Positions 8,466 to 10,506 of a DNA stretch of 64,000 bases are shown here, piece by piece. Every line of letters begins with the position of its first letter. Positions within the stretch are counted from its first letter, which is position 1. The translations under genes were made by a program, and so were the position numbers. A model generated the notes under the pieces. That model had not been told where the DNA came from. It worked only from the letters and a program-made list of their open reading frames with translations, and ran no database searches. Source of the DNA: Kribbella sp. NBC_00382 (GTDB lineage: Bacteria > Actinomycetota > Actinomycetes > Propionibacteriales > Kribbellaceae); assembly GCF_036067295.1 (NCBI RefSeq), contig NZ_CP107954.1:62001-126000 (forward strand), given 5' to 3'.

Positions 8466-8487
8466 ATCCGCAGGTTAGCTCTAATCA

Positions 8488-8511
8488 CTGACACTCACTG
8501 GCAGGTATCAG
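8488..8511. promoter_or_regulatory. Candidate WYL-regulator operator
   Basis: CTGACAC at 8488-8494 and GTATCAG at 8505-8511 form a 7-bp inverted repeat with one mismatch, centred in the 62-bp gap between the divergent WYL regulator and the four-repeat protein. A direct TCACTG repeat overlaps it. Binding is inferred from position and symmetry only. Confidence 0.45.
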
Positions 8512-8527
8512 CGAGAGGCTCTACCCC

Positions 8528-10417
8528 ATGAGCACAATCACCAAGGTCACCGGCGACTTCGACTTCCTCAACGGCCACTTCGACGTCGCGCATCGCGTCC
8601 TCACGCCGACCGGCGCATGGGACGAGTACGCCGGCACCCACACCGGCCGGACCCATCACGCCGGCGCAGTGAGCGTCGACGAGGCACGGTTCCCCGGCAA
8701 AGCGGCGTACGGGATGTCACTTCGCCTGTACGACCCGGTCGAGCAGAACTGGACGGTCTACTGGGTCAGCAGCACGACCGGCAAGCTCCAGCCGCCGGTC
8801 CGCGGCGGCTGGTCGGACGGCGTTTGCACCCTGTACGGCGAGGACGACCTCGGCGACCGGATGATCCCCGTCCGGCTGCGCTGGTCCGACGTCACCGAGA
8901 CGACCGCGCACTGGGAACAGGCGTACTCCGAGGACGGCGGCGAGACCTGGCAGACCAACTGGACGATGGACCTGACCCGGCGATCGACCGAACCGCCGGC
9001 CATCGACGCCCCGAAGGTCACCGGCGACTTCGACTTCTTCGTCGGCTCCTGGAACGTGCAACACCGCCAGCTGCTCGCCCCGCTGACCGGCAGCGACGAG
9101 TGGCGCGAGTACCCGGGCACGGCCGAGGCCTACACGCTCTTCGACGGCGCGGTCTCCATCGACGAGACCTTCTTCCCGACCGAGGACTTCGACGGGATGA
9201 CGGTTCGCCTGTACGACGTGGAGGCGGGCGCGTGGGCGATCTACTGGATCAACAGCAAGCGCGGTGTACTGGAGCCACCCGTGTACGGCGGTTTCGGCGC
9301 GGACGAGGTCGGCATCCTGGAGGGCCCGGACACGCATGACGGGCAGCCCGTGGATGTCCGGTTCCGGTGGACGAAGGGCGAAGTACCGGTCTGGGAGCAG
9401 TTCTTCTCGGCCGACGGCGGCGCGACCTGGGAGAGCAACTGGTCGATGACCTTCACCCGGATGTTCCCCAAGGTGACCAGCGACTTCGACTTCCTCAACG
9501 GGTACTTCGATGTGCGGCACCGGACCCTGAACAAGGTGTTCGTCGGCAGCGACGACTGGCAGAGCTACGACGGCACGTGCACCGCTCGGACCCACTTCGA
9601 CGGGGCGATCAGCATCGACGAGATGCAGTTCCCGGGCAAAGCGTCGTACGGGATGTCGGTGCGGCTCTTCGACCCGGTGTCGCGGGACTGGACCATCTAC
9701 TGGATCAACAGCAAGTCGATGGAGCTCTATCCGCCGGTGAAGGGGCGCTGGGCCGAGGACGGGAAGTCTTGCTGGCTGACCGGCGAAGAGGAGCTCGACG
9801 GCAAGCCGATCCTGGTCAGCTACGCCTGGTCGGACGTCACCGAGACGACGGCGCACTGGGAGCAGTCGTTCTCCGAGGACGGCGGCGCGACCTGGGAGGT
9901 GAACTGGACGATGGACTTCACCCGGCGTTCGACCGAGCCACCGCGGGTCGACATCCCCAAGCCCAGCAGCGATTTCGACTTCCTGGTCGGTGAGTGGGAC
10001 ATGCACAACGAACGCCGCCGGCCGGCGTTGGGCGAGCCGTCGGAGTGGTACGAGCTGGCCTCGAAGATGAAGGTCTACTCGTACTTCGACGGCGCGATCA
10101 GCTTCGACGAGGGCTGGTACCCGACCGAGGGATTCCGTGGCGCGACACTACGGCTCTACAACCCGGCGGCCGAGACCTGGTCCATTCACTGGATCAACAG
10201 CCTGCGCGGCACCCTGGAGACCCCGGTGATCGGTGCCTTCGGCAACGATGGCGTGGGCGTCTTCGAGGGCCCGGACGAGTGGAACGGCCAACCGATCGAC
10301 GTCCGCTTCGTCTGGACCCCCGGCACCACCCACGCCGCCTGGGAACAACTCTTCTCCACCGACAACGGCCAGACCTGGCTGAGCAACTGGAAAATGCGCC
10401 ACACCCGCACGGCCTGA
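8528..10417 (+). CDS. Four-repeat lipocalin-like protein, A-B-A-B architecture
   Basis: This 629-residue protein consists of four tandem copies of one domain, at residues ~6-162, 163-314, 315-477 and 478-629. Each opens with a motif like VTGDFDFLNG or SSDFDFLVGEW, passes through VSIDE...FP and a YWI/VNS strand, and ends with WEQ.FS.DGG.TW..NW.M..TR. The alternating strands and conserved Trp residues suggest a small beta-barrel. Single-domain relatives (~150 residues) of unknown function are common in actinobacteria. Copies 1 and 3 share WSDVTETTAHWEQ and FPGKA.YGMS, while 2 and 4 share FPTE.F.G or YPTE and EGPD...GQP.DVRF. This implies a two-domain unit that was duplicated once. No signal peptide or membrane helix is seen. 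It is likely controlled by the divergent WYL regulator. Function is unknown. Confidence 0.85.
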   Translation: MSTITKVTGDFDFLNGHFDVAHRVLTPTGAWDEYAGTHTGRTHHAGAVSVDEARFPGKAAYGMSLRLYDPVEQNWTVYWVSSTTGKLQPPVRGGWSDGVCTLYGEDDLGDRMIPVRLRWSDVTETTAHWEQAYSEDGGETWQTNWTMDLTRRSTEPPAIDAPKVTGDFDFFVGSWNVQHRQLLAPLTGSDEWREYPGTAEAYTLFDGAVSIDETFFPTEDFDGMTVRLYDVEAGAWAIYWINSKRGVLEPPVYGGFGADEVGILEGPDTHDGQPVDVRFRWTKGEVPVWEQFFSADGGATWESNWSMTFTRMFPKVTSDFDFLNGYFDVRHRTLNKVFVGSDDWQSYDGTCTARTHFDGAISIDEMQFPGKASYGMSVRLFDPVSRDWTIYWINSKSMELYPPVKGRWAEDGKSCWLTGEEELDGKPILVSYAWSDVTETTAHWEQSFSEDGGATWEVNWTMDFTRRSTEPPRVDIPKPSSDFDFLVGEWDMHNERRRPALGEPSEWYELASKMKVYSYFDGAISFDEGWYPTEGFRGATLRLYNPAAETWSIHWINSLRGTLETPVIGAFGNDGVGVFEGPDEWNGQPIDVRFVWTPGTTHAAWEQLFSTDNGQTWLSNWKMRHTRTA

Positions 10418-10430
10418 CCCGCCAACTCTG

Positions 10431-10506
10431 GCGACCTTGAACATCAAGCGGCGACCTTGAACACGTTATTACTTGTTCAGGGTCGCCGCTTGGTGTTCAA
10501 GGTCGC
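10431..10506. repeat. Long near-perfect hairpin between convergent genes
   Basis: The left arm 10431-10464 and right arm 10475-10506 pair over about 32 bases with only a few mismatches, around a 10-base loop. Each arm contains GCGACCTTGAAC-type sequence, and the left arm repeats it directly (10431-10442 and 10451-10462). There is no T tract on either side, so it is not a classical intrinsic terminator. Its place between convergent genes would still let it act as a bidirectional transcript end or 3' stabiliser. Confidence 0.85.

Follow-up and report, generated by a model that had tools for sequence, protein, structure and literature searches.

The window, the 64,000-nt stretch of Kribbella sp. 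NBC_00382 DNA that we analyzed, contains a gene encoding four barrel domains in the order A-B-A-B and, across a gap of 62 bp, a divergently oriented gene for a regulator (Table 1). Other genes around the locus that we recognized by sequence were hisG, ribH, ribAB and a peptidase-like ORF. The regulator had Pfam matches to HTH_11 (66.2 bits), WYL (65.8 bits) and WCX (40.6 bits), with cut-offs of 25, 21.8 and 23.9, respectively, and by its domains is assigned to the WYL transcription regulators (HTH-WYL-WCX). The organism is rich in WYL regulators: its genome gave 13 WYL matches. Pfam contains no family for the barrel domain. A Pfam search with the repeat gave DUF1579 at 20.4 bits, below the gathering cut-off of 25.2, and 5 of 52 relatives matched DUF1579 at E up to 1. 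An NCBIfam search with the 629-aa protein gave no match for the repeat.

Table 1. Positions in the window of the barrel gene, its domains, the divergent regulator gene and the predicted control elements between them.
Feature	Position	Strand	Basis or remark
Divergent HTH_11-WYL-WCX regulator, 322 aa	7497..8465	-	Pfam domains
Predicted -10 of WYL gene, TAACCT on minus strand	8472..8477	-	10 nt from dyad
Putative operator dyad, CTGACA-CTCAC-TGGCAG (consensus CTGNCA-N5-TGNCAG)	8488..8504		Conservation
Predicted weak -10 of barrel gene, GAGGCT	8515..8520	+	10 nt from dyad, 7 nt before ATG; inferred
Four-barrel A-B-A-B gene	8528..10417	+	ATG to stop, 629 aa plus stop
Domain 1 (D1), type A	8543..9013	+	Residues 6-162; alignment and tree
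Domain 2 (D2), type B	9014..9469	+	Residues 163-314; alignment and tree
Domain 3 (D3), type A	9470..9958	+	Residues 315-477; fold predicted, pLDDT 96.9
Domain 4 (D4), type B	9959..10414	+	Residues 478-629; alignment and tree

The initial annotation had described four domains of about 155 residues falling into two types (1 and 3, 2 and 4), and had proposed duplication of a two-domain unit. Pairwise identities within the 629-aa ORF were 62% for D1-D3, 46% for D1-D2, and 38% for both D1-D4 and D3-D4. By raw identity itself, the pairing of domain 2 with domain 4 is backed weakly, because D2-D4 (51.3%) is so close to D2-D3 (50.7%). We also built a maximum-likelihood tree from 70 of 110 domains, leaving out the distant loci L124, L125, L133, L134 and L136. 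Domains 1 and 3 grouped with N-terminal (A) domains (starred support 100/96), whereas the even-numbered domains fell among the C-terminal (B) domains (starred support 95/97), in a bootstrap that had not fully settled (correlation 0.945). That is, the two types are recovered as two clades. Purifying selection acts on each of the four domains (dN/dS of 0.15-0.38 against four fused orthologues), and W31, E52, R66, W75, W79, W121, W131, Q133, N146 and W147 are among the nearly invariant residues of the barrel domain.

The barrel gene was present in all 38 genomes of the same genus that we examined. Domain counts over these genomes (a set that includes L135) gave 30 with a single two-domain A-B gene, orthologous to copies 3-4, two with unfused, adjacent A-B genes in tandem (G020 and G031), and six with the four-domain form (G000, G036, G026, G008, G024 and G027). 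In G020 the stop codon of the first gene is followed two bases on by the ATG of the second, and in G031 the stop and start overlap. The four-domain gene of G027 is frame-shifted within domain 1 (L057:5536-5900), from a sequencing error or decay. Outside the genus, we found two-domain genes in two other families of the same order (L068 and L118). In the tree, domains 3-4 clustered with the common two-domain gene and domains 1-2 with the first gene of G020; domain 2 clustered more loosely with the first gene of G031.

Based on the domain tree and the adjacent A-B genes, the A-B gene was doubled in tandem and the copies were afterwards fused to A-B-A-B. The proposed duplication of a two-domain unit is thus borne out by the pairing of 1 with 3 and 2 with 4 and by the unfused intermediates. 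Because the extra copy branches deeply, the duplication probably predates most of the genus and was followed by losses. Since lone A-B genes, neighbouring pairs of them and the A-B-A-B fusion all occur in one genus, the multiplication of domains can be traced stepwise.

We found that the divergent WYL gene was conserved beside the barrel gene. It was there in all 38 genomes of the genus, and the WYL protein was 71-91% identical across the 37 others. In a survey outside the genus (matches in G409 and G376 left out), 8 of 23 loci had a divergent WYL neighbour and 15 had no WYL neighbour of this kind. Among the best 80 of 588 matches, taken from named genomes, the proportion was 66/80, which is biased upwards because these are the best matches and the queries were drawn partly from WYL-paired genes; the sample leans to close relatives. 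The 14 misses include L141 and L151, both of which start at a contig edge, and L070 and L183 are apparently one place counted twice. Genera with the pairing among these 80 include Micromonospora, Amycolatopsis, Streptomyces and Streptosporangium, along with two Caulobacter. Thus, the divergent pairing, which the initial annotation had noted at this one locus and read as part of an undescribed module, is kept in many relatives. Our literature search, which reached few subscription papers, found no earlier description of it. The WYL-barrel pair is a real and apparently undescribed module made of known kinds of parts. To our knowledge, an operator or a target has been established for few WYL regulators in any organism.

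The inverted repeat that had been noted in the gap is real and conserved, but it is imperfect: CTGACA (8488-8493) and TGGCAG (8499-8504) are separated by 5 nt, and a generic repeat finder run on the window did not list it. The pattern CTGNCA-N5-TGNCAG was present in the gap in 38/38 genomes of the genus. Of 74 other loci with the WYL gene, 71 had it (70 with the strict pattern and one with a looser one); the 74 are those with a WYL N-terminus among 88 loci given (80 plus 8 chosen for their WYL gene). The pattern occurred in about 1% of 20,000 random 116-bp windows from the same loci. The dyad is recognizable by its conservation. Of 21 loci without a WYL neighbour, 18 lacked the dyad. G049 (8.5 Mb) has exactly two perfect dyads, one at each of its barrel loci, and a WYL gene at only one of them. 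With its GGT extension, the pattern occurs once in the window's 8.49-Mb genome. We take the dyad to be real and a putative operator. This putative operator and the predicted promoter layout are precise, and they are tied to one target family over many genera.

The dyad was also seen at other places. The only perfect CTGACA-N5-TGTCAG of the genome (G000:C1:353495-353511; L260:1501-1517) is upstream of a gene that, from its sequence, we read as whiB7-like. At 29 sites in the genus (L267-L295, one per genome), whiB7 was within reach of none, and because of this absence we treated the dyad near whiB7 as chance and rejected control of whiB7 by the dyad. Many of the 38 genomes of the genus also contain identical copies of the dyad CTGACAGTAACTGTCAG (for example, G011:C1:522368-522384); these copies are perhaps the operator of some other regulator.

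Elements resembling a -10 lie at fixed distances from the dyad. On the WYL side, TANNNT was found 10 nt from the dyad in 36/38 genomes of the genus (25/27 non-redundant loci). On the barrel side, a weaker NA...T was found at the same distance in 36/38 genomes, and TANNNT in none of the 27 non-redundant loci. Outside the genus, 28 of the 39 loci that are non-redundant have TANNNT exactly 11 nt past the dyad on the target side. Within the genus, the ATG is usually 22-23 nt from the dyad; in G006 and G035, the barrel gene is farther away, with other sequence interposed. The fixed spacing of the -10 elements and the nearby ATG predict a bidirectional promoter with leaderless messages. Because the dyad ends 10-11 nt before a -10-like element, the operator is predicted to sit between the usual positions of -35 and -10, as in activators of the SiwR/PafBC type.

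Three described WYL systems have a similar arrangement, according to those parts of the reports that were available to us. In M. smegmatis, SiwR activates adjacent genes under genotoxic stress via arginines of its WYL domain, and the site that it binds is a 19-bp imperfect palindrome upstream of their -10 (PMC10693628). PafBC is activated by ssDNA via paired arginines and acts from the -26 position (PMC11804915), and DriD binds a palindrome that overlaps the -35 (PMC12340889). The signal for all three is single-stranded DNA (PMC11804915, PMC10693628, PMC12340889). From the same excerpts, one of the closest known systems is SiwR with its DinB-like targets (PMC10693628), likewise a single WYL regulator adjoining its targets with a palindrome just upstream of the -10. 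The SiwR target is a DinB helical bundle, whereas the target here is a calycin-type barrel and the operator is CTGACA-N5-TGTCAG. PafBC acting at RecA-NDp shares the layout of a WYL/WCX regulator at about -26 with no -35, but PafBC works as a heterodimer at a site that is not palindromic, and here there is a single WYL protein and a dyad. In the window's WYL protein, R194 and R197 are spaced like the PafBC and SiwR arginines and on that basis are their candidate equivalents. Of 111 proteins, at least 95% have R197, whereas R194 is not invariant and occurs in 60-90%.

We prefer activation because the dyad is placed like SiwR and PafBC sites and because of the spacing of R194 and R197. The WYL protein, probably a homodimer, would bind the 17-bp dyad between the back-to-back -10 elements, which in both promoters spans roughly -39 to -23, and would activate the barrel gene in the manner of SiwR or PafBC. 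The trigger would be a stress ligand bound by the WYL/WCX part; this ligand could be a nucleic acid or a small molecule.

It is also possible, though somewhat unlikely, that the WYL protein is a repressor that sits on the dyad, shields the two promoters and is released by a metabolite, such that the barrel protein is made only when its ligand is present. The dyad in place of a -35 hexamer and the weak target-side -10 are as expected of an activated promoter, and SiwR and PafBC, the closest precedents in layout, are activators according to the excerpts available. These points argue against repression, even though a protein bound between the two -10 elements could block both promoters and the initial annotation's idea of induction by a small ligand fits a repressor.

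We predicted the structure of one domain and of the whole target protein. An AlphaFold2 model of domain 3, made with 58 aligned domains, had ten strands (pLDDT 96.9, pTM 0.89), and domain 3 is predicted to be a 10-stranded calycin-type barrel. The full-length model had four sets of ten strands in series (pLDDT 88.6, pTM 0.62), and their placement relative to each other is uncertain. The initial annotation had proposed a comparison with lipocalin and nitrobindin barrels and had named a ligand-binding barrel and a conserved divergent pairing as support for the module. The predicted fold, a ligand-type barrel, and the pairing both speak in favour, and neither of the outcomes that it had named as refuting was seen. 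Nitrobindins matched domain 3 with Z of about 14-15 (about 15 at rmsd 3.3; Rv2717c Z 14.0), Rv0813 with Z 13.5 and fatty-acid/retinoid-binding proteins with Z of about 10, but OlmO and OssO are closer than nitrobindins or classical lipocalins. The best solved match was OlmO, with a Foldseek E of 8e-9 and, across 142 residues, an rmsd of 2.1 (Z 19.3), followed by OssO (Z 18.1, rmsd 2.5).

Nitrobindins (2a13, Rv2717c, THAP4) are ten-stranded barrels too. The heme-ligating histidine of nitrobindin is H158. The barrel protein differs in having tandem domains and no conserved heme histidine; among 58 domains, none of the invariant or nearly invariant columns was histidine, and because of this lack we rejected a heme or nitrobindin-like role. 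We also rejected a BNR/Asp-box sialidase, as the match was only to the 12-residue SxDGGxTW motif and the predicted fold is a 10-stranded barrel, not a beta-propeller. Profile matches to Kelch and to designed propellers were weak, partial and at odds with the barrel fold. With the full-length model, Foldseek also matched BFA1 and DUF3598 proteins, which are calycin-type barrel proteins with two barrels each. They do not have four barrels, and no A-B-A-B history is known for them.

OlmO and OssO (7sfn and 7sfp), spiroacetal cyclases with the same barrel fold as the domain 3 model, have been proposed as spirocyclases in the part of the source available to us (PMC6490886). The link in fold to these proteins gives a first chemical hypothesis for a barrel domain that has no Pfam family. 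It is unlikely, in our estimate, that the barrel is itself an enzyme of this kind, acting on a secondary metabolite by cyclization or dehydration and not a carrier. In its favour, no solved structure matched better than OlmO and OssO, which score well above nitrobindin, and several polar residues are near-invariant (E52, R66, Q133 and N146). However, identity to the barrel domain is 16% for OlmO and 15% for OssO, and neither has a sequence-profile match: OlmO was absent from the 30 matches up to E 10 with profile A5 and from the matches listed, the best 60 of 104, with profile A2. Because OlmO is beyond reach by sequence, shared chemistry is not implied. The barrel protein also differs in its tandem domains and in having no polyketide or other biosynthetic cluster adjoining (its neighbours are hisG, ribH, ribAB-like and peptidase-like genes), and the locus is kept in every genome of the genus, unlike a typical metabolite cluster.

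The explanation that we prefer, with moderate confidence, is a ligand-gated WYL activator with a target barrel of a small-molecule type whose A-B unit was doubled and fused. The pairing, operator, spacing, fold prediction and duplication history come from computation; that the WYL protein activates rather than represses, what it senses, what the barrel carries and what four barrels gain are inferences. Counting against the explanation are the incomplete conservation of R194, the weak target-side -10 in the genus and the 15 of 23 loci outside the genus that have no such WYL neighbour. The target would be a cytoplasmic calycin-type barrel with the OlmO/nitrobindin fold. Its most probable role is to bind, and possibly also to convert, a small hydrophobic molecule. 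In this genus, tandem duplication turned an ancestral double barrel of A-B type into neighbouring genes, which were then fused in a few species to A-B-A-B. The fusion would double the number of sites per promoter, presumably the advantage of four barrels. A more far-reaching version, which we regard as quite unlikely, is a widespread actinobacterial stress circuit. In it, a WYL regulator gated by a nucleic-acid or antibiotic-damage signal would switch on barrels with the OlmO fold that capture or chemically close the offending natural product, and in this genus A-B duplication and fusion would have scaled the circuit up to a four-site protein.

It is very unlikely that PafBC, through its DNA-damage regulon (RecA-NDp), controls the promoter in place of the local WYL protein: the window's WYL-facing promoter (TGTCAGTG-N8-TAACCT) and L050 (TGTCAGTG-N8-TAGCCT) have the TGTCAGTG-N8-TANNNT arrangement of the RecA-NDp gene SCO6735 (TGTCAGTG-N8-TACGGT in a printed primer, as we read it in the available part of PMC5087735), but RecA-NDp is described as non-palindromic (PMC6789036) and the dyad here accompanies the WYL gene wherever that gene is retained, the target-side spacing outside the genus is N9 in 26/74 loci and N8 in 0/74, and we treat cross-talk as minor because only 2 of 38 genomes of the genus have the exact match.

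Apart from the activator and its barrel target, other sequences were seen at or near these loci. A conserved gene for a 159-aa protein (gene X; L189:3513-3992 and L159:3525-4004, in loci of Streptomyces and Micromonospora type) had no match in Pfam or NCBIfam. Of 92 loci outside the genus, 39 have it, and in the examples that we read it sits between the WYL gene and the barrel gene. Gene X is absent from the window's barrel locus, and weak relatives occur elsewhere in the genome. In the window, the gap between the barrel gene and ribH contains a near-perfect palindrome with 36-nt arms (10431-10506; MFE -70.6 kcal/mol, z -13.3). This palindrome has at least 78 matches on the chromosome (both strands, at about 40 places; 40 of 64 candidates scored) and is a member of a dispersed family of palindromic repeats.
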